Below the pieces are notes generated by a model. That model ran no database searches. It had not been told where the DNA came from and saw nothing but the letters and a program-made list of their open reading frames with translations. DNA of 53,539 nucleotides from Nostoc sp. T09 (lineage in GTDB: Bacteria > Cyanobacteriota > Cyanobacteriia > Cyanobacteriales > Nostocaceae). The position numbers and the translations under genes are program-made. The stretch lies in contig NZ_MTAV01000095.1 of the NCBI RefSeq assembly GCF_002154695.1, forward strand, positions 1 through 53,539. Reading direction: 5' to 3'. Position 1 is the stretch's first letter; every line of letters begins with the position of its first letter. Of this stretch, positions 7,180 to 41,669 are shown piece by piece.

Positions 7180-9317
7180 CAACTCACTACCAAAGAACAA
7201 TGGAGCGCATCGACGTTAATCCCACCCATACCTACGGCGACTTTAAGCTACGCCGAGGTAAACCTTTCCCTTTTGGAGCCACGCTAGTTCCAGGAGGGGT
7301 GAATTTTTCCATCTTTTCCAGTCACGCCAAATCCTGTTCTTTAGTGCTGTTTAAGAAACATCAGCCCGAACCGTTGGCAGAAATTCCTTTTCCCGAAGAG
7401 TTTCGGATTGGGAATGTTTTTTGCATGGTGGTTTTTGACCTGGATTACGAAGAAATCGAATACGGCTATCGCATGGATGGGCCATTCGACCCGAAGGCAG
7501 GACACTGGTTTGACAAGAATAAAATTCTTTTAGACCCCTATGCCAAAATTATTGGCGGACGGGATGTTTGGGGAGTAACTCCAGATTGGAGTGACATCTA
7601 CCATCATCGCGCCCGGATTGCCTTCGATGACTTTGACTGGGAATCAGAGCGTCCTCTGGAACTGCCTCCAGAAGATTTGATTATTTACGAAATGCATGTC
7701 CGCAGCTTTACCCGCCATCCATCCTCTGGGGTGAAGCATCCAGGAACCTTTGCGGCGATTCGGGAAAAAATCCCCTACCTGAAAGAGTTGGGTGTGAACT
7801 GTATCGAACTCATGCCTGTATACGAGTTCGATGAGTTTGAAAATTCTCGTCCCAATCCTCAAACAGGTGAAACGCTGCTGAACTATTGGGGCTACAGCAC
7901 TGTTGGTTTCTTTGCACCCAAGGCGGGGTATGCAGCCACAGGTAAGTTTGGGATGCAGGTCGATGAGTTGAAGGCACTGGTTAAAGACCTTCATGCCAAC
8001 GGCATTGAAGTAATTTTAGATGTGGTTTTCAACCATACTGCTGAAGGTAATGAGAACGGTCCAGTAATTTCCTTCCGCGGTATTGACAATAAGACATACT
8101 ATATGCTGACCCCGGAGGGGTATTACTACAACTTTAGTGGTTGTGGTAACACGCTCAATTGTAATAACCCGATTGTGCGCAATATTGTGCTCGACTGTTT
8201 GCGCTACTGGGCAGCAGAATATCACATTGACGGCTTCCGTTTTGATTTGGCATCTATTCTCGGTCGTGATCCTTGGGGGGCACCGCTAGCAAATCCGCCT
8301 TTGTTAGAAACCCTGGCTTTTGACCCAATTCTTGCCAGATGTAAATTGATTGCCGAAGCTTGGGATGCGGGCGGTTTATACCAAGTAGGTTCTTTCCCCG
8401 CCTTTGGTCGCTGGGCTGAGTGGAATGGTAAGTACCGCGATGGCATTCGCAAGTTCCTCAAAGGCGAACCGGGGCGCGTCGGAGATATGGCGCAACGGCT
8501 GCAAGGTTCACCGGATCTCTATGCTTGGGCGGGACGTGCACCTGCGACTTCGATTAATTTCATCACCGCCCATGATGGGTTTACCTTAGCTGACTTGGTT
8601 TCCTACAACGGCAAACATAACGAAGCCAACGGGGAAAACAACAACGACGGTACCAACGATAATGACAGTTGGAACTGTGGAGCAGAAGGCTGGACAGAAG
8701 ATGCAGGCATTAATGCCTTGCGTCAACGGCAGATGAAAAATGCGATCGCCATGCTCCTAGTCAGCCAAGGCGTACCAATGCTTCTCATGGGCGATGAAGT
8801 TGGCAGAAGTCAGCAAGGTAACAACAATACCTACTGTCACGACAACGATCTTAGCTGGTTGGATTGGAATTTATTGAAGTCAAACTCCGACCTATTCAAC
8901 TTTGCCAAGCACTGCATCGCTTTCCGCAATGTGCATCCTGTACTAAGAAACCACTGGCATTTCCAAAATCGAGACTACGTTGGTAGTGGCTATGCTGATA
9001 TTACCTGGCACGGTACTAAAGCTTGGAATGCAGACTGGTCTGACTCTAGCCGTACCCTGGCCTTTATGCTTTGTGGCAAACATGCGAAAGGTGGCACAGT
9101 CAACGATAACTATATTTACGTTGCCATGAACATGCACTGGGAAGCTCAGTGGTTTGAAATTCCCCAACCACCAGCGGGTATGAAGTGGCATGTTTTTGCT
9201 AATACTGGTGCGCCTCCAGCAGAAGCCAGCTGGGAACCAGGAAAGGAACCTGAACTTGGCAATCAGCAAGGAATTTTACTAGGCGATCGCTCAGTAGTTA
9301 TTCTAGTAGGCAAATAA
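7176..9317 (+). CDS. glgX: Glycogen debranching enzyme (isoamylase type)
   Basis: This 713-residue GH13 enzyme hydrolyses alpha-1,6 branches of glycogen. The N-terminal part (about 20-130) is a CBM48-like domain (PFPFGATLVPGGVNFSIFSSHA). The barrel carries the four GH13 motifs: DVVFNHTAEG, then GFRFDLASIL with nucleophile Asp357, LIAEAWDAGG with acid/base Glu394, and TAHDGFTLADL with Asp467. The spacing agrees with GlgX/TreX enzymes. Two starts are possible: ATG 7176, preceded by AAAGGA, or ATG 7200, nine codons in; the first is kept. It sits inside the icfG-type cluster between two STAS genes, as slr1857 does, which ties glycogen breakdown to the partner-switching signal. Confidence 0.93.
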   Translation: MTTHYQRTMERIDVNPTHTYGDFKLRRGKPFPFGATLVPGGVNFSIFSSHAKSCSLVLFKKHQPEPLAEIPFPEEFRIGNVFCMVVFDLDYEEIEYGYRMDGPFDPKAGHWFDKNKILLDPYAKIIGGRDVWGVTPDWSDIYHHRARIAFDDFDWESERPLELPPEDLIIYEMHVRSFTRHPSSGVKHPGTFAAIREKIPYLKELGVNCIELMPVYEFDEFENSRPNPQTGETLLNYWGYSTVGFFAPKAGYAATGKFGMQVDELKALVKDLHANGIEVILDVVFNHTAEGNENGPVISFRGIDNKTYYMLTPEGYYYNFSGCGNTLNCNNPIVRNIVLDCLRYWAAEYHIDGFRFDLASILGRDPWGAPLANPPLLETLAFDPILARCKLIAEAWDAGGLYQVGSFPAFGRWAEWNGKYRDGIRKFLKGEPGRVGDMAQRLQGSPDLYAWAGRAPATSINFITAHDGFTLADLVSYNGKHNEANGENNNDGTNDNDSWNCGAEGWTEDAGINALRQRQMKNAIAMLLVSQGVPMLLMGDEVGRSQQGNNNTYCHDNDLSWLDWNLLKSNSDLFNFAKHCIAFRNVHPVLRNHWHFQNRDYVGSGYADITWHGTKAWNADWSDSSRTLAFMLCGKHAKGGTVNDNYIYVAMNMHWEAQWFEIPQPPAGMKWHVFANTGAPPAEASWEPGKEPELGNQQGILLGDRSVVILVGK

Positions 9318-31318: not shown

Positions 31319-32599
<1,281 letters not shown>

Positions 32600-32674
32600 G
32601 TTATTGAGGAATTCATTTTAATTTCTCATTTGGCTCGCAATCAAGTTTCTTAATTAGCAAGCACCTTTAGCAAC

Positions 32675-32699
32675 GTAGGGTGGAAACTTGCCACCCTAC
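32675..32699. repeat. GTAGGGTGG...CCACCCTAC hairpin repeat after psaC
   Basis: GTAGGGTGG (32675-32683) pairs with CCACCCTAC (32691-32699). A very similar hairpin lies at 43441-43465, so it is a dispersed repeat; it may also help end psaC transcription. Confidence 0.7.
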
Positions 32700-32728
32700 A
32701 GTATCGTTCTTTAAAAATAATCACTATC

Positions 32729-32757
32729 AAAAGGAGTAATATGCTCCTTTTTTCTTT
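32729..32757 (+). terminator. Rho-independent terminator between psaC and glmS
   Basis: AAAAGGAG (32729-32736) and CTCCTTTT (32744-32751) form a stem with a 7-base loop, followed by TTCTTT. Confidence 0.75.
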
Positions 32758-32828
32758 GCTAAAATGTCACTTCTATGGTAACAACTAAACAGGTTGGAAT
32801 CTTCCTCAATAGGGAGTGGTGAACTAAA

Positions 32829-34706
32829 ATGTGCGGAATCGTTGGCTATATCGGCACTCAAGCGGCGACAGAAATTCTACTGGCTGGGTTAGAAAAACTG
32901 GAGTATCGTGGGTACGATTCCGCAGGAATCGCTACCATTTGGGAAGGTAAGATTCAATGCGTGCGGGCTAAGGGTAAACTGCATAACTTACGTTCTAAAC
33001 TTGAACAAATAGAAAACCCGGCGCAAATTGGGATCGGTCACACTCGCTGGGCGACTCATGGTAAACCAGAAGAGTATAACGCCCATCCCCACATGGATAC
33101 GGCAATGCGCATAGCGGTAGTGCAAAATGGCATTATTGAAAATTACCGTGAGTTGCGAGAGGAACTAAAACACAAAGGACATCAGTTTCGGTCACAAACA
33201 GATACAGAAGTGATTCCTCACCTGATTGCCGACATTTTGAAAACATCTCCTTCTTCTTTGTTAGATGCAGTTCGCCAAGCCGTAAACCACCTTGAAGGCG
33301 CATTTGCGATCGCAGTTATTTCGGCTGACTACCCTGATGAATTAATTGTTGTTAGGCAGCAAGCACCCTTGGTAATTGGTTTTGGGCAAGGAGAGTTCTT
33401 CTGTGCTTCTGATACGCCCGCGATCGTTTCTTACACCCGGGCAGTGCTACCATTGGAAAATGGGGAAATTGCGCGCCTGACTCCTCTAGGCGTTGAGATT
33501 TACAATTTTGCTGGCGACAGGCTAAAAAAACAACCTCGATTGCTCAACTTGAATCCCACGATGGTAGAAAAGCAGGGATTCAAACACTTCATGCTCAAAG
33601 AAATTTACGAGCAACCGGGAGTAGTACGCGCGAGCTTAGAAGCTTACTTTAATAATGATGGTAATTCCTGCCAACCTACTCAGTCACCAATTAATTTAGG
33701 TTTACCTACAGAATTATACGCAGATATAGAACAAATTCAAATAGTTGCTTGTGGTACTAGTTGGCACGCCGCCTTAGTTGGAAAATACTTGCTCGAACAA
33801 CTAGCAGGAATTTCTACACAAGTACACTATGCTTCTGAGTATCGCTATGCGCCATCACCTTTGATACCCAACACATTAATAATTGGTGTCACACAATCAG
33901 GTGAAACAGCTGATACTTTAGCAGCTTTAGCGATGGAAAAAGAACGTCGCCAAGGTAAAGAAAATAAATATCAAGCCCGATTGTTAGGCATTACTAATCG
34001 TCCCGAAAGTAGCCTCGGTCATATGGTTCCCCATATTATTAATACCTTGGCAGGAATTGAAATTGGAGTAGCAGCAACAAAAACCTTTATTGCTCAATTA
34101 ATGGCATTTTACGCTTTAGCATTAGACTTAGCTGCTCATCGTCAGACAATTTCCCCAGACAGGATAGCAGAGATTATTGAAGGCTTGCGACAAGTTCCTA
34201 AAGAGATTGAAGCTACTTTAGACATTCAAGTAAGTTTAACTGAACACTTAGCCCATGATTTCGCCGAAACCCAAGATTTCATCTTTTTGGGAAGAGGAAT
34301 TAATTTCCCTATCGCTTTAGAAGGGGCATTGAAATTAAAGGAAATTAGCTACATTCACGCCGAAGGGTATCCAGCCGGAGAAATGAAACACGGTCCGATC
34401 GCGCTTTTGGATGCTAAAGTACCGGTAGTTGCGATCGCAGTTCCTGGTAGTGTTTACGAAAAAGTAATTTCTAACGCCCAAGAAGCCAAAGCCAGAGATT
34501 CTCGGTTAATTGGCGTGACTCCCGTCAAAGATGGCGAAGCAGGCGAAATATTCAACGATTTGTTACCAGTTGCAAGTGTAGATGAATTACTCTCTCCTAT
34601 CCTCACAGTTATACCTCTGCAATTATTGGCTTATCACATCGCTGCCCGTCGCGGTTTAGACGTTGACCAGCCCAGAAATTTGGCCAAGTCTGTAACTGTG
34701 GAATAG
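32829..34706 (+). CDS. glmS: Glutamine--fructose-6-phosphate aminotransferase (isomerizing)
   Basis: This 625-residue enzyme makes glucosamine-6-phosphate for peptidoglycan and LPS. The N-terminal glutaminase domain starts with the catalytic Cys2 (MCGIVGYIG) and has GHTRWATHG and HMDTAMRIAVVQNGIIENY. Two SIS domains follow (CGTSWHAALVGKYLLE, GVTQSGETADTLAAL; FLGRGINFPIALEGALKLKEISYIHAEGYPAGEMKHGPIALL). The end DQPRNLAKSVTVE is the usual one. No glmS riboswitch is visible; the gene is preceded by an AGGGAG ribosome binding site. A hairpin (34718-34745) follows it. Confidence 0.97.
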   Translation: MCGIVGYIGTQAATEILLAGLEKLEYRGYDSAGIATIWEGKIQCVRAKGKLHNLRSKLEQIENPAQIGIGHTRWATHGKPEEYNAHPHMDTAMRIAVVQNGIIENYRELREELKHKGHQFRSQTDTEVIPHLIADILKTSPSSLLDAVRQAVNHLEGAFAIAVISADYPDELIVVRQQAPLVIGFGQGEFFCASDTPAIVSYTRAVLPLENGEIARLTPLGVEIYNFAGDRLKKQPRLLNLNPTMVEKQGFKHFMLKEIYEQPGVVRASLEAYFNNDGNSCQPTQSPINLGLPTELYADIEQIQIVACGTSWHAALVGKYLLEQLAGISTQVHYASEYRYAPSPLIPNTLIIGVTQSGETADTLAALAMEKERRQGKENKYQARLLGITNRPESSLGHMVPHIINTLAGIEIGVAATKTFIAQLMAFYALALDLAAHRQTISPDRIAEIIEGLRQVPKEIEATLDIQVSLTEHLAHDFAETQDFIFLGRGINFPIALEGALKLKEISYIHAEGYPAGEMKHGPIALLDAKVPVVAIAVPGSVYEKVISNAQEAKARDSRLIGVTPVKDGEAGEIFNDLLPVASVDELLSPILTVIPLQLLAYHIAARRGLDVDQPRNLAKSVTVE

Positions 34707-34717
34707 GCTATTGATAC

Positions 34718-34745
34718 AGGTAGTAGCGTACACGTTCTACTACCT
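34718..34745 (+). terminator. Hairpin after glmS
   Basis: AGGTAGTAG (34718-34726) pairs perfectly with CTACTACCT (34737-34745), with an outer TGATA/TATCA extension; no T-run. Confidence 0.6.
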
Positions 34746-34810
34746 ATCAATGTGCAATTCTTCATGATCTTAAAACTAGGTCAAAAAACCCCTTTATTAG
34801 AGATTACGCC

Positions 34811-35386
34811 ATGACACAGACAACGACTGAGCGTCTGTACTCTTTTGAAGAATATCTTGCATATGACGATGGTACTGATAACCGTTATGAACTGGTGGAT
34901 GGAAAACTAGAACTTATGAATCCACCAACTTTCAGACATTTACTGATTTCTAAATTTATTGAACTAGCATTTGACACAGAAATCAATCGCCTGAGTTTAC
35001 CTTGGCTATGCTTTAGAGAGGCGGGAGTAAGAACGGGATGGCGGAAGTCAAGATTACCTGATGTTTATGTTGTCACGGCTGAGCAGGTAAAAGAATTCCT
35101 TGATGAGTCGGCTGTTTGTCAGACTGCGCCGATATTAGTAGTGGAAGTGGTGAGTCTTGATTCAGTGAAGCGCGATTATCGCTATAAACGTTCTGAATAC
35201 GCGGCATTGGAAATTCCAGAGTATTGGATTGTAGACCCAATAGAATCAAAAATTACAATTTTATTGTTGTCAGAAGGATTGTACGAAGAACAAGAATTTA
35301 TCGGAAGTGAGCAAATTGTGTCTGCAACTTTTCCGAAAATTGTGCTTACGGTTGAACAAATTTTAGCTGCGGGTAATGTTGATTAG
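34811..35386 (+). CDS. Uma2 family (DUF820) endonuclease-like protein
   Basis: This 191-residue protein has the Uma2 pattern: YSFEEYLAYDDGTDNRYELVDGKLELM, then RLPDVYVVTAEQ, VVEVVSLDSVKRDYRYKRSEYAALEIPEYWIVDPI. The D...EVV...K arrangement is that of a PD-(D/E)XK nuclease. Cyanobacteria have dozens of copies per genome; their role is unknown, with mobile-element or defence links suspected. It marks the left edge of the accessory stretch. Confidence 0.88.
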   Translation: MTQTTTERLYSFEEYLAYDDGTDNRYELVDGKLELMNPPTFRHLLISKFIELAFDTEINRLSLPWLCFREAGVRTGWRKSRLPDVYVVTAEQVKEFLDESAVCQTAPILVVEVVSLDSVKRDYRYKRSEYAALEIPEYWIVDPIESKITILLLSEGLYEEQEFIGSEQIVSATFPKIVLTVEQILAAGNVD

Positions 35387-35519
35387 AAAAAGCAATATCT
35401 CCGCCAGCCTGCGCCTACACTGACTTAAAATGCTGTGGTTATAAAATTTGAACTGATTGCTGAAGCAACTAAAAATATCTCAGGATTAAATATGCAGCAC
35501 AATTTATTGAGACACTGAT

Positions 35520-35936
35520 ATGACGGAAGAGAAAATAGCATTGTTTTCAGGTAGACAACTTGGAACTGTTATTAGAGAAAAATTACAGTCAACTTTACAA
35601 GATATAGATAACATTGATGCCAATACTTTACTCAATACAAGTTTAGAAGATTGGTATGACTACTATGAAAGGAATTGTAAATTTGAGATACTAGAACTTT
35701 TAAAAAATGAAATTTCTATTGATCGAGAAGAAGCATTATTACCTGTAATGAATTTTTTTAGCGGTTATACACAAGCAAAAGTAACTAAATTCAGTTATTT
35801 TATTACCTTTAAAGGTGAACAAGAGCTATTTAGATATCAGCCATCTGTATCTATTGGGGAGCTTAATAATGCTTTATTTGCAGAAATATATGATGTCAAA
35901 CTTACGCCAGTATTAGCCTTCTTAACCTATGACTGA
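35520..35936 (+). CDS. Hypothetical protein
   Basis: This 138-residue acidic protein is not one I recognise. It has an N-terminal helical half (REKLQSTLQDIDNIDANTLL, DWYDYYERNCKFEILELLKNE) and a beta-rich C-terminus (KVTKFSYFITFKGEQELFRYQPSVS, LTPVLAFLTYD). It is AT-rich compared with its neighbours, and it is convergent with the PLD-helicase gene, 48 bases away. It could be an accessory part of that system or an independent insertion. Confidence 0.65.
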   Translation: MTEEKIALFSGRQLGTVIREKLQSTLQDIDNIDANTLLNTSLEDWYDYYERNCKFEILELLKNEISIDREEALLPVMNFFSGYTQAKVTKFSYFITFKGEQELFRYQPSVSIGELNNALFAEIYDVKLTPVLAFLTYD

Positions 35937-35984
35937 CTAGACTTGAACCAAATCAAGTATATATTAACCCTGTATTTCCATGTT

Positions 35985-38900
35985 TTATTTTTCATAGTTA
36001 GAAATGTCATCTAGCAACCGATTTATTTCTGCTGTCTTGTCAAGAGGTACGAGATAAAGACCACAAATTTTGCTTATCCGGTCTACGGAAATATTCTCAA
36101 AATCACACCAAGCACGGGCAGCTTGGTTAGCTATCTTCTCAATCTCAGCAGCTTGAATTGCGGCACAAGGTTCTGATTCTATACAAGCAATTAAATCAAG
36201 AATAGCAAGTTCATCTTGCTTTTCAAACTTTTTGCTTGACAAGTTGAAAAGTATGGGACAATACTTGCTTTCATACTTAAGCAGTACAAAGATACGGGGT
36301 TGAGGCTTGGAATAGCTCCTTGCACTCAGTAAATATTCTGGCAGTTCTTCTGCACGACTCCGGTATTGTTCAAGCACTGCTACATGAGTCAGCATGGATT
36401 CAGCACCAAGTCCACCAATATCTTTTAAAAATTGACTATCTCGTGTAAGTTGCTCCACATCTAAATCGCTATCAAGCGTTATTTCAGAGTGTTCTTCTTC
36501 TGATATGACACCAGATCCCAAAATGCGTTTCGATTTATTGTGGCGATGAGCAATGCGAGTAAATCTCTTACAGATATCGTTTTGTACGCGGGAGAGGCTG
36601 TCTGTTTGATCTATGATTAACGGTACAAGTGTATAGAACTGAACCACTCGTTCAGAATTTGCGGTCATCCTCAACACTCTACCTGCCCTTTGAAATAGCT
36701 CATCTGCTCCTTCGGGTGGGTCGTAGTTTACCACAGTATCGGCATCTTGTAAATTAACACCTACACCATCTGCATCAGTACAAATTAGTACGTCATACTC
36801 TTGGCTGGCATTGTAATTATGAGAACGTGGTGAAAACTGTTTTAGTACTTCAGAACGCTGTAATCCAGCTTTTAATCGCGGATTACCTTCATCCGTTTCA
36901 ACTGTACAACCAATCTTAAGTGCGTCACTAAATGTTCTCTCCAACATACTTAGTAAATACTGGGCAGTAAGATATCTCTTGACAAATATGATGACTTTAC
37001 CCTTTGTATCTAGGCAATGCTCCTGAATAATGTTCTGCAATTTCAGAAACTTGTCATCTGTGTAGTTACTCTGCCTAAGCCGTGCCAGTAGTGGTATCAG
37101 AGTATTCCTACGCTCTTCCAAGCTTAGATACATCGGTGTTTTATGAGACCGATTTTGTGTATCAAGCACGTTAAAAGAACGATGTTCTTGATTATTAATA
37201 TCAGTAGCAGACTGTTCCCATAGGTTTAGAGTGAGTTGAGAGGAGTCTTCTGTTTGCTCACAAGAGCTTAATGTCGCAAGGTTTTGTTCAATACTGTTTG
37301 CCATTGCTACAGGTGAACTAAGCCAGTTTGTAAGTGAAGCATTATACACTGTATCGATCGCACTCTCGCATAGAGCCATTTTCTCATCATCAAACCATTC
37401 ATGTGGAGACTTAAAAGCTTGATCAAAACAACGGCGATCAAAAGCAGCTTGTAGTTCAGGCTGTAAGAACAACTGGTAGCGTAACGAATATAGCTTGAGG
37501 CTTTTTGGTAGATAACTTCGTTCATCACCAAACTGAATGAAAGTTCGTCCGTTTGTATCAATATCACCTCTGTTTCGAGCCATTTGTAAGACATGAGGTA
37601 GCCCCAAAATGGTCACGATTGGTAAGCGGGAAAACTCTTCGGCATCACTAATTTCCCAAGGAATTTGCTCTTCCAATAGATTAGGTTTGTAAAACCGATG
37701 AGGTAGAAGATATAGCAAACTATTAAGATTTAAGTAATCTGTGCCATATGCTGTAGCCGTGAGAAGAAAGATTTTTGCACCTGCTTTGACTGCTGGTACT
37801 ATACGTTCATAAACCAAACTCTTACCATGTTTGGACTTCTTCCGTAGAAGTTCATTTCGATAGAAGTGAGCCTCATCAATAATAATTACAGTATTATCAT
37901 TAGCTCGTTGAAGCAGCTTCTCTAGCTGGGTTGTTAGATGGCGAGATTCCTCAGAAGCTTTGCGAAACAGCAGATCGATGTTAAAAAACTTAAAGTAAAC
38001 ATTGCGATTTTCAAGCTGCTGTTCCCAATTTTCGCGTACTCCACTAGGAGCAATTAAAATAACTAGACTGGTTCTGCCTATTGGTTGCAAACGCAAAGCA
38101 ATTTCAGCACCTATAACAGTCTTACCCAGACCAGTCGCAGCTATGATAAGTGCGCCACCATACTCATTAGCTTGACGAAGAGCGCGTGCAATTACACCCT
38201 TCTGATAATACACAGGAGAATACGCACCTAAAGACAAAGGATATTCAGCTAAGTTATTGAGCAGAAAAAGTGTTTTAAGATAAACCTCGAATGGGGTGGC
38301 GAGATTAAGCCAATCCTCTAACTTTTTGATCAGTTCAGCCAGTAAATCTTGGGCATTTTGAGCAACATCATCATACCAATTTGTAAACAAACAGATCCGC
38401 GCAGAATCGTGGCTAACGCTCACTTGCTCTGCTGATTGGCAAAGTCCTCTACGACTGTAGTTTGATGAACCATGCCATATTAGCTTTGAATCACAGATGT
38501 AAAATTTACAGTGAAAAGGCACTTGCATTTCGCGGGCATCTCGAATAATGAAGCGCCCGGATTTCATGCGTTCAACTAATTCAAAAACTGTTCTCCACAG
38601 ATCGGTATCACACTGTCCCAAATCTGCCGTAATCTCATCAATGACAGTGGCTCGGACATGCTTTCCTTCCTCCCGACCCACTAGGATTTGAAATTGTACC
38701 TCCGATGCCACATACTTACGACCCAACTTGTATCCAACCAGGCTAAAGTAAGCACTAGCAATACGAATTGTATTTTCAGCTTCTGGAAAATAGGCTTTAA
38801 TAAACTCTAATCCTACACCAGAGCCGACACCTGCAATAGGTTGACCATCAGGATTGGACTGTAAAACCAAAGCTAACTTTGACTTTGACTTGCGAGGCAT
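35985..38900 (-). CDS. PLD-nuclease / SF2 helicase fusion protein
   Basis: This 971-residue protein has a phospholipase-D-like domain at about 25-180 with an HxKx4D motif (His130, Lys132, Asp137) followed by GSSNYSRRGL. The superfamily 2 (SNF2/DEAD-like) helicase core runs from about 225 to 790: Walker A AATGLGKTVIG (255-261), DEAH box IIIDEAHFYRN (342-345), motif III LLTATAYG, then in the C-core CTDADGVGVNLQ and QRAGRVLRM. The last 180 residues are of unknown fold. Only one HKD motif is present, so it would work as a dimer. Such fusions recall the PLD and helicase parts of defence systems (DISARM and others), but I cannot place it in a named one. It is intact and starts about 55 bases from the broken pPIWI-RE genes. 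Confidence 0.82.
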   Translation of the reverse strand: MPRKSKSKLALVLQSNPDGQPIAGVGSGVGLEFIKAYFPEAENTIRIASAYFSLVGYKLGRKYVASEVQFQILVGREEGKHVRATVIDEITADLGQCDTDLWRTVFELVERMKSGRFIIRDAREMQVPFHCKFYICDSKLIWHGSSNYSRRGLCQSAEQVSVSHDSARICLFTNWYDDVAQNAQDLLAELIKKLEDWLNLATPFEVYLKTLFLLNNLAEYPLSLGAYSPVYYQKGVIARALRQANEYGGALIIAATGLGKTVIGAEIALRLQPIGRTSLVILIAPSGVRENWEQQLENRNVYFKFFNIDLLFRKASEESRHLTTQLEKLLQRANDNTVIIIDEAHFYRNELLRKKSKHGKSLVYERIVPAVKAGAKIFLLTATAYGTDYLNLNSLLYLLPHRFYKPNLLEEQIPWEISDAEEFSRLPIVTILGLPHVLQMARNRGDIDTNGRTFIQFGDERSYLPKSLKLYSLRYQLFLQPELQAAFDRRCFDQAFKSPHEWFDDEKMALCESAIDTVYNASLTNWLSSPVAMANSIEQNLATLSSCEQTEDSSQLTLNLWEQSATDINNQEHRSFNVLDTQNRSHKTPMYLSLEERRNTLIPLLARLRQSNYTDDKFLKLQNIIQEHCLDTKGKVIIFVKRYLTAQYLLSMLERTFSDALKIGCTVETDEGNPRLKAGLQRSEVLKQFSPRSHNYNASQEYDVLICTDADGVGVNLQDADTVVNYDPPEGADELFQRAGRVLRMTANSERVVQFYTLVPLIIDQTDSLSRVQNDICKRFTRIAHRHNKSKRILGSGVISEEEHSEITLDSDLDVEQLTRDSQFLKDIGGLGAESMLTHVAVLEQYRSRAEELPEYLLSARSYSKPQPRIFVLLKYESKYCPILFNLSSKKFEKQDELAILDLIACIESEPCAAIQAAEIEKIANQAARAWCDFENISVDRISKICGLYLVPLDKTAEINRLLDDISNYEK

Positions 38901-38956
38901 GAGGGAGTGTTACTAATTTCAGCAATACCTTTCTATTATCTGTTTTATTGATACTT

Positions 38957-39958
38957 ATGTACTATGATTTAGCGATTGCGCTGTACCAGTTGCGTAAGTC
39001 CTGTGACATTGGGGTGAAAACTGAGGATTACATGAGATTCAACCGTGTTACCCCACCATTAATGCAGCGATGGACAACAGCAAAACGCCATGTACTATTC
39101 TCGCAAGGATGACAACCAATCTGAGAATAGCAGCGAAAATGCTTTATCTTTGTTTGCCTATACCAACATTGGTCGTTACTACGTTTTGAACTTTCATCGT
39201 TTGCTAACAGACTTGGATGGTCAACTCGGCCCTAATATCTTGGCACTATCAGGAACTTCTTATCTACGAGATTCCATCAGTTTCATGTTGGGAATCCCCA
39301 AGGTATTTTAATGCCAGAGCCGAGCGCAACAGAAGCGATGGCTGCGCCAACGTCTTTGACTAACGCTCAAAGTCGTTTTAAGTTTCTACCTCAATTCAAC
39401 CGCAAAGATGAACCTATTCGTATTTCTGGCACACCAGAACGCCAAAAAATGGGAATGTTCAAAGAAATGGCACAAGCATTAGTTGGTAACAACGGTAGTG
39501 GCCATTTAGGGCAGGAACTTGAGGAATTGAAAAAGCTTGGCGAGAGCAGTCCAGATTTTTGGCAGGATAGGGAACGCCTACTATTACTCGTCAACTCCTA
39601 CGATCAGGCGCGATGGGTAACAGACGAAATCCGTCAATGTTGGTGAGGTATGCGGGAGCAAGTTTACCATTTGCAGCGCGATCGCACAGAAGCTTTGACT
39701 GATGATGACATCAACTATCTCTTAAGGATAGAAGTTGGTGCGCTCAACCGTGCCGATATCGAAACTTTTGCACTGACTGGCGGTAAAATCCTGGCTGCAC
39801 CGATAAGTGCTATGGGGCGCGGATTCAACATTTTGAATGCCAATAGTCAAGCGGCTTTTGGTGCGGTTTGCTTTCTCACCCGTCCCTATCCTCATCCCCA
39901 TGATACTCAAGCGATCGCCAAGAAAATAAAAAGCGCCTTCAAAGTAAAATCAAGTTGA
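38957..39958 (+). pseudogene. Broken C-terminal part of a pPIWI-RE-associated helicase
   Basis: Four overlapping pieces read as one protein across two frame changes and a stop. Frame A (38957) gives YYDLAIALYQLRKSC then NRVTPPLMQRWTTAKRHV. A shift near 39100 leads to frame B: NIGRYYVLNFHRLLTDLDGQ and LGPNILALSGTSYLRD. A second shift near 39310 leads to frame C: RISGTPERQKMGMFKEMA and LLLLVNSYDQARWVTDEI. A TGA at 39644 interrupts frame C, which goes on as TGGKILAAPISAMGRGFNIL and AAFGAVCFLTRPYPHPHD. This series fits the C-terminal helicase core of the DinG-like helicase that goes with pPIWI-RE proteins (families described by Burroughs, Iyer and Aravind). The N-terminal ATPase part is missing. 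The family call is from memory. Confidence 0.65.
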
Positions 39959-40665
39959 GCGGTACAGAATTAGTACAGTTTGTTGCGCGTGTACTAACCA
40001 AGCACTTAGACCGACCAACCATTGTTTTAATTGAAGCCGAAGGTTGGCGTAACGAACATGGCGGAGATAATAATGGTACAGTCTGGTTTCAGTTGAAAAA
40101 TGAGAACCTTCTGGCAAAACGTAACGTTCTGGATTTTCTCCATGTTCCTGGTCACACTTGCGAGTATAAGCGTGACAATCAACAACTACAAGACTTATTA
40201 GCAATAATTCGTATTCGCACTGGTAAAGAAACACCACAGTATATTACCAATCGAGAAGTTTGGAACGAAGATTGTCTAGCACGAGATTTCTCACATCTGA
40301 GCGGTTTTTACGATAAGTCAGCACCAGAACTACTACATTATTTCTCTATGGGAAGGCTACCAAAAACACAAAAACTACAAAATGAGATGCCAATACCCGA
40401 ACTTTACAAACTCGGTTTTCAAGATGATGAATACGGTGCTAACATCCCCTTCAAACATCAACAGATGGTGGAGATGGTGCCGTTTTTTGTACACTCAGAT
40501 TTTCAAACAGAAGAAGCTTTAAAGGCACTATGTCGCGTTCCTCACTATTTAAGATGCTCACCTGCTTGGTCTATGGGAAATATCGTTTTGCCATACCCAA
40601 TGCACTTAGGCAAGGAACTCATAGAAGATCATCTGAGCATACTTGGTGTAAATTTACAAATTTAA
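39955..40665 (+). pseudogene. C-terminal (RNase H fold) remnant of a pPIWI-RE protein
   Basis: This 236-codon frame begins at a TTG inside the end of the helicase wreck, and no ribosome binding site is seen. It contains the RNase H-like part of pPIWI-RE: LVQFVARVLTKHLDRPTIVL then LIEAEGWRNEHGG, GTVWFQLKNENLL, TPQYITNREVWNEDC, ELLHYFSMGRLPKTQK, and the closing LPYPMHLGKELIED. The N-terminal two thirds of a normal protein of this family are gone, so it is most likely a deletion fusion with the helicase in front (which itself lacks its last part). It could still make a short protein, but not a working system. Confidence 0.6.
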
Positions 40666-40693
40666 CGTGAGGCATAACAATACCTTAGCCAAT

Positions 40694-40915
40694 TTACGAG
40701 AGTTCAACGCCACAAGAAACGGGATGAATACGTCCTAAAGAAGTAAGCTCGGCAAAAATTTGGGCTAATAAAATAGGCTCATGCTTTTCTTTAAGCATTT
40801 TTAACATTTCACGAACATATCGAAAGCCGCGGTAATAAGCTTGAAGGTTAATAATGCCATAACCGGGATTGTATTGACGAAAATCAGAGAGAAGATGATG
40901 GGACAGATAATAATT
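40694..40915 (-). pseudogene. Unidentified protein-like fragment on the minus strand
   Basis: A 73-codon stop-to-stop frame without a start reads like real protein: DFRQYNPGYGIINLQAYYRG, FRYVREMLKMLKEKHEPILL, FAELTSLGRIHPVSCGV. I do not recognise the family. It could be the remnant of a further gene of the lost system (for example the third, nuclease-type gene) or unrelated debris. Confidence 0.35.
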
Positions 40916-41669
40916 CTAGAAAGGAAGAGAATAGGATTACATGGCTACGAGCATTAGTATTAAGATTGGTTTTGACTAAAATCACTATAACTTTATTGCA
41001 TCAGCCCTCTCTTCATCCTGTTGTTTTGGCAAAGGTATTAAACTCTCCAATTCCTAAATGGGATACTACCTTGATTGTTGTTGTTATTGCTGATGCTCCC
41101 CATATATGCTTGTAGAATAGTCGTAGAAGGAAGCGATCGCATAACATTTTGTCGCAGCAGAACTTCTCAAATAAATATTGAACTTATTGAACTATTTCAA
41201 ACCTTTACTTATAAAGGTTTTACAGAATTGTTTAACCGTTTTATTCGCTTCTTTTGTTTAAAGCCAAGTATACTATAGAAATGCGATTAAATTGTTTAAC
41301 CGTTTAATTTTGTTAACTACCATAGACCAGGCATTTAAAGAATAGAAATTGTTAAACGGAATTATTCGTCTACATTTAATTGTAGAAAAATAAAAAAGTT
41401 AGAAATTAATTAACAAAGTTGGAACATAACTCTTGGGGGTAGATATTGCGATCGCCTTCAAGAGATTTTTTATAGCTAGAGGTAGACGAGAGTAGATGGA
41501 AGCTATAGCCATAGCCCAGAGCGTTCATCCATGCCAGACTGATCAACATAGACTCTTCGGAGGCGCTTTGGAATTATCCACCTGCGCTCTTGTAGCCGCT
41601 CGTTTGGCTTCATCAATTCAAAATTAGATTTAAAATAGGAAATCACAATACTGAATTTATAGCAGCGAT
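40916..41669. other. Spacer between the broken island and the GST gene
   Basis: This AT-rich 754-base stretch has no convincing gene (a 67-codon frame at 41075 is dominated by Leu and Phe and has no ribosome binding site). Between 41225 and 41368 there are three copies of an AATTGTTTAACCGTTT-like sequence, described as a separate repeat. Confidence 0.5.
41225..41368. repeat. Three AATTGTTTAACCGTTT-like repeats
   Basis: GAATTGTTTAACCGTTTTAT (41225), AATTGTTTAACCGTTTAATT (41290) and AATTGTTAAACGGAATTATT (41347, with the core changed or inverted) occur at intervals of about 60 bases. Confidence 0.55.

Follow-up and report, generated by a model that had tools for sequence, protein, structure and literature searches.

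The window, the whole stretch of DNA analysed here, is the entire contig C35 (53,539 nucleotides) of Nostoc sp. T09. At 39004–40675 it holds what is left of a pPIWI-RE triad (REase-DinG-pPIWI), recognised by both profile and DNA comparison, beside an intact PLD-helicase that is under purifying selection. The pieces descend from a pPIWI-RE three-gene system: their DNA is 87–92% identical to that of relatives, and they stand at the same site as a complete-looking triad in another genome of the genus, G006. Most likely, and we hold this with reasonable confidence, the PLD-helicase took over the front of the triad and the rest then decayed.

The pieces had been predicted to come from a single triad, and profile matches to PprDinG and RNaseH_pPIWI_RE, together with DNA identity to G006, confirm this (Table 1). 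Three plus-strand open reading frames match the PADLOC PprDinG profile in colinear order, and the pPIWI piece downstream is the C-terminal part of the RNase H domain, with its reading frame open; NCBIfam gave zero matches for these four. DNA comparison with G006 revealed a fifth piece at the left end. In order, the five lie in frames 2, 0, 2, 2 and 1. The original prediction of two frameshifts and a stop is right about the stop, an in-frame TGA at 39644–39646, and about the presence of frame changes, of which there are three: at an inner DinG deletion, before 39311, and at the DinG-pPIWI fusion, which is out of frame. It missed the inner deletion itself, 695 bp at a short GTAC match, which removed DinG residues 546–776. 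The proposed deletion joining DinG to pPIWI is borne out: the junction lies at 39911, its parent sites are present in G002 and G006, and about 2.7 kb between DinG residue ~1050 and pPIWI residue ~738 is gone. Compared with G006, the window therefore lacks REase, DinG 1–513, DinG 546–776 and everything from DinG ~1050 to pPIWI ~737. A pPIWI_RE protein comprising the X, MID and RNase H domains is absent from the window, where only RNase H profile positions 77–287 are left, and the place of a DinG-type helicase directly before pPIWI is taken by nothing but DinG pieces that carry frame changes and a stop. These DinG pieces are dead.

Table 1. Features of the island in the window.
Feature	Position	Strand	Evidence
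PDC-S54-like gene, 5' part, 138 aa	35520..35936	+	PADLOC PDC-S54, E 4.2e-19
PLD-helicase, intact, 971 aa	35985..38900	-	Pfam PLDc_2, ResIII, Helicase_C
TGCGTAAGTCCT	38991..39002	+	single copy in window; PLD cassette edge
DinG remnant, residues ~514–545 of G006 protein	39004–39095	+	90% DNA identity, L009 8527–8618
ORF 39090–39308	39090–39308	+	PADLOC PprDinG profile 594–642 (of 930), E 1.6e-6
DinG remnant, residues ~777–1050	39093–39929	+	86.7% DNA identity, L009 9314–10134; 91.6% to G002
ORF 39311–39643	39311–39643	+	PADLOC PprDinG profile 647–722, E 2.7e-14
ORF 39650–39955	39650–39955	+	PADLOC PprDinG profile 728–813 of 930, E 3.3e-18
GCGATCGC (HIP1), cyanobacterial palindrome	39911–39918	+	DinG-pPIWI deletion junction
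pPIWI-RE remnant, residues ~738–988	39911–40675	+	87.6% DNA identity, L009 12815–13579
RNase H domain match	39955–40662	+	Pfam RNaseH_pPIWI_RE (PF13032) profile 77–287 of 288, E 1.1e-18

Comparison with a relative that keeps the whole system had been proposed as a check, and G006 provides it at the same chromosomal place. After glmS and Uma2, G006 has two minus-strand genes, one for an M78 protease and one for an HTH protein, and then on the plus strand REase (383 aa), DinG (1203 aa) and pPIWI (988 aa), the last with X, MID and RNase H domains all present; a sequence search of solved structures with this pPIWI gave zero matches at E up to 0.1. The window matches G006 at 31802–35494, which extends beyond the Uma2 stop, then in three pieces over 39004–40675, and again from 42354. 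The 3.5 kb at 35494–39004 carries the truncated S54-like gene and the PLD-helicase, and its counterpart in G006 is M78, HTH, REase and DinG 1–513. In six other genomes (G003, G036, G018, G092, G155 and G194) the match at this site ends at the end of Uma2 (35389–35391), and in G036 it resumes after 61 bp, at window position 41390. Because matches break down at the Uma2 end in these genomes, we regard the site as a variable island in which the triad stood. The island spans 35391–41389 in the window and 61 bp in G036. The RNase H fragment is matched in six of the eight genomes of the genus, the host's own genome included.

The HTH_3 and Peptidase_M78 pair is divergent from the G006 triad (L009 4767–5690) and is absent from the window. 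We take it to resemble a CapH/CapP-type switch of HTH regulator and M78 protease; the region has weak capP and RmrA matches, and the regulatory role is putative. At the group B loci described below, the HTH gene matches only from residue 54–59 on.

According to Burroughs 2013 (PMC3702460), the pPIWI-RE three-gene system has the strict order REase, DinG, pPIWI. G006 has all three genes complete, and the window keeps DinG and pPIWI pieces in the conserved order; it differs in lacking REase and most of DinG and pPIWI, and in carrying a divergent PLD-helicase in the front part. In the rest of the host genome (G000, 8.25 Mb in 270 contigs), HMM searches found no intact pPIWI-RE gene: PF13032 matches the window fragment only, the REase profile PF18154 has zero matches in all of G000, and PprDinG matches two remnants, in C35 and C143, neither of them full-length. 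Contig C143 holds a second PLD-helicase of the genome, 32% identical to that of the window, lying against a decayed DinG. A protein search also found another pPIWI tail remnant on C17, of 43 residues (L014 9735–9842, residues 951–986).

The PLD-helicase was predicted to be complete and on the other strand, and it is indeed intact and divergent. The distance between its start and the first DinG remnant (38900 to 39004) is about 103 bases, not about 55 as first stated. Of the break points said to lie beside it, this holds for the left truncation point; the fusion point at 39911 is about 1 kb away. Pfam matches place a PLD-like nuclease domain at the N-terminus, followed by an SF2 helicase. Motifs were read from the sequence and a list of invariant columns and are conserved in seven aligned sequences: HxKx4D (H130-K132-D137), GLGKT (257–261), DEAH (342–345) and QRAGRVLR (737–744), which we take to be the PLD HKD and SF2 helicase motifs. 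Both sets thus occur within one protein, the general architecture of a PLD-helicase. The window protein has this PLD-like plus SF2 architecture and a similar length in common with anti-phage proteins (PADLOC PLD_Helicase and C3a139, NCBIfam NF042964) but is only distantly related to them, scoring 46 bits with PLD_Helicase, 69 with C3a139, and 66.2 with NF042964 against a curated cut-off of 1100. Solved structures searched with it at E up to 1e-5 gave zero matches. In codon models, omega is 0.23 for the group A PLD-helicases to which it belongs (LRT against 1 = 131, 971 codons) and 0.256 for group B (LRT 146). It is probably a stand-alone nuclease-helicase defence protein, with putative anti-phage activity.

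The S54-like gene beside it is probably a remnant. Its residues 2–111 align to positions 2–116 of a 410-position profile, short of full length, and its relatives have open frames of 416–436 aa (418 in G040, 436 in G199 and 416 in G193). In G199 the 436-aa frame lies directly after glmS. At the other edge of the cassette, TGCGTAAGTCCT is possibly the end of a small repeat element. At the same edge in G157 lies an element of roughly 100 bp (L107, about 7880–8020) in which the TGCGTAAGTCCT end occurs in inverted versions.

From these comparisons we infer the order of events and the route of insertion. A complete pPIWI-RE triad would once have stood at this glmS-Uma2 site. Its M78 protease, HTH and REase genes and the first 513 DinG codons would have given way to 3.5 kb carrying a working PLD-helicase together with a truncated S54 gene. 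Two deletions would then have shortened the remaining operon, one of them with a HIP1 octamer at either end.

The HIP1 deletion left its trace at the junction. Both parent ends in G002 carry a perfect GCGATCGC (L010 7770 and 10452), and a single copy is left in the window; in G006 the DinG end reads GTGATCGC, with one mismatch, and the pPIWI end is HIP1 at L009 12815. The role of HIP1 in cyanobacteria is described as an open question in PMC4390886, which cites evidence for HIP1 in excision and site-specific recombination. In the HIP1-promoted excision cited there (Robinson 1997), the deletion leaves one HIP1 at the join, as in the window; the difference is that in the window about 2.7 kb was lost naturally from an operon in decay, as reconstructed by comparison rather than by experiment. 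HIP1 occurs at 3 of 12 junctions inspected, one of the three (G135, inner DinG) being imperfect. The set includes G108 and C143, each resolved on just one side, as well as the group B PLD-DinG join, which is without a donor for comparison. HIP1 accounts for 8/178 of the direct repeats of 8 bp or more in G002; measured by that share, this post hoc count gives P = 0.015 for all three junctions and 0.099 for the two clean ones, and we treat HIP1 as a strong deletion hotspot as suggestive only. The junctions are natural examples of deletions at HIP1, few as they are here.

In G156 the PLD cassette edge is joined directly to the pPIWI HIP1, the same HIP1 at which the window fragment begins, and the two PLD-helicases are 95% identical. 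A single wreck inherited by both is not favoured: the G156 RNase H fragment groups with G006 and G002 (bootstrap 99), apart from that of the window, which is placed near G133 with weak support (57). The simplest reading is two events at one site, with recombination as an alternative.

Such PLD-helicases recur beside pPIWI-RE genes. Two subfamilies, groups A and B (32% identical), adjoin pPIWI-RE genes or remnants at 9 of 12 loci. Group A comprises the window, G156, G157, G208 and a broken copy in G152 (94–96% identical), with a 53% relative in an Anaerolineales MAG; group B comprises G135, G146, C143, G108 and the partial G136:C100 (86–98%), with G237 (63%). The adjoining loci are the window, G156, G208 (a 33-residue pPIWI tail, 1.2 kb from the PLD-helicase), G135, G146, C143, G108, G136:C100 and G237; no pPIWI-RE gene or remnant was found beside the PLD-helicase in G157, G152 or the Anaerolineales MAG. 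By contrast, group C PLD-helicases (46–48%) adjoin pPIWI-RE at none of eight loci in the bacterial family of the window, seven read with G006 reference proteins (two at contig ends) and G115 by hit coordinates only. A ninth, partial copy in G133 does not adjoin it either. Fisher's test gives 0.0014 against eight and 0.0011 against nine, with the limit that loci are not independent, five group B family loci appearing to share one PLD-DinG join. A match occurs in 25 of the 388 genomes sampled across the order; 22 of these are outside the family, nine of them have PF13032, and only in G237 does it lie beside the PLD-helicase.

At the eight PLD-adjacent family loci the operon is 5'-truncated in every case and DinG is full-length in none. 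Among 33 control pPIWI loci not adjoining a PLD-helicase, from genomes of at most 10 contigs, an ORF of 870 aa or more occupies the DinG position in 25, with DinG identity taken from place and length, and one further locus, L201, is ambiguous (Fisher 1.3e-4; 0.0075 when the PLD-adjacent loci are reduced to four independent cases). The control does not include G002 and G007, which were already known; their DinG ORFs have 1214 and 858 aa, and their pPIWI genes are interrupted by DDE transposase ORFs (L010 10672–11793 and L011 9007–9861). Decay of pPIWI is common without a PLD-helicase, several control loci having split or short pPIWI ORFs. The recurrence suggests that such PLD-helicases repeatedly take over pPIWI-RE operons, and the pattern may mean that the two compete for one site or that a partner has been exchanged.

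The original suggestion that one system was lost while another took its place fits the 3.5-kb swap in the window. It is incomplete in treating the neighbour as incidental. With PLD-helicases of these subfamilies adjoining pPIWI-RE at 9 of 12 loci, the view that unrelated systems simply replaced one another loses weight as a full account. This linkage, too frequent for a purely incidental neighbour, also counts against takeover followed by decay; it makes a functional link possible, and loss and gain may have been one event.

A tentative reading that we rate well below takeover and decay is that group A and B PLD-helicases are functional partners or alternative effectors of pPIWI-RE, the nuclease-helicase having replaced REase and DinG in situ. 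Some Nostoc lineages would then have a two-part system of pPIWI and PLD-helicase, and the window would be an end stage in which most of pPIWI was lost, partly via HIP1. Besides the contrast with group C in the same family, the MAG G135 speaks for it: an intact PLD-helicase lies beside a 948-codon pPIWI with omega 0.18 (LRT against 1 = 27.7), and searches with PF18154 and the PprDinG profile found neither REase nor PprDinG in that genome. Yet this pPIWI lacks about 45 N-terminal residues and has no MID-domain match at E 0.001. G136, which shares the arrangement, also speaks for it: the PLD-helicase there is broken, with 331 aa left, and omega for its pPIWI is 0.32 against 0.136 (LRT 4.5). In G237, of another family, a complete triad of a divergent kind is followed 242 bp on by a PLD-helicase on the same strand (L167 1291–11687), but that PLD-helicase has one apparent frameshift. 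Within the family the PLD-helicase is on the opposite strand at all eight loci, at most a pPIWI fragment is left in G146, C143, the window, G156 and G208, and the five group B loci probably stem from one ancestral junction. Stand-alone pPIWI-RE genes are known (PMC3702460), and in the passages of that paper searched the words 'PLD' and 'phospholipase' occur 0 times.

Codon models separate the two parts of the remnant. The DinG pieces show relaxation, with omega 0.30 on the window branch and 0.095 elsewhere (293 codons; LRT 8.9–10.2 across three topologies, 8.9 in the best), whereas the RNase H fragment has 0.27 on that branch against a background of 0.28 (247 codons; LRT against 1 = 12.1) and shows no relaxation in the model. 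This fits a recent break or continued use, and counts against takeover and decay in that the fragment must be either young as a fragment or still used. That it is a working stand-alone protein (ORF of about 236–253 aa) seems improbable to us. The frame is open in the window and in G156, from the same HIP1, and omega on the window branch is low; however, the branch also spans time before the break, and on the G156 branch omega is 0.35, not clearly below 1 (LRT 3.1). The first ~67 of 288 profile positions are gone, where the first catalytic strand would be expected, and the sole start near the front is a TTG at 39955. An assembly or sequencing artefact, conceivable in a draft of 270 contigs, is very improbable: the DNA flanking each junction diverges on either side by about 9–13% from that of relatives, there are several independent lesions, and other genomes, the single-contig G156 among them, have similar arrangements.

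We favour takeover of the front of the triad by the PLD-helicase, with subsequent decay. Prediction of the pPIWI-RE system was based on gene neighbourhoods; a recurrent swap of REase and DinG for a fused nuclease-helicase, if true, would be a natural test of what partners pPIWI needs, and G135, in which pPIWI is kept without REase or DinG, would be a case for such a test.
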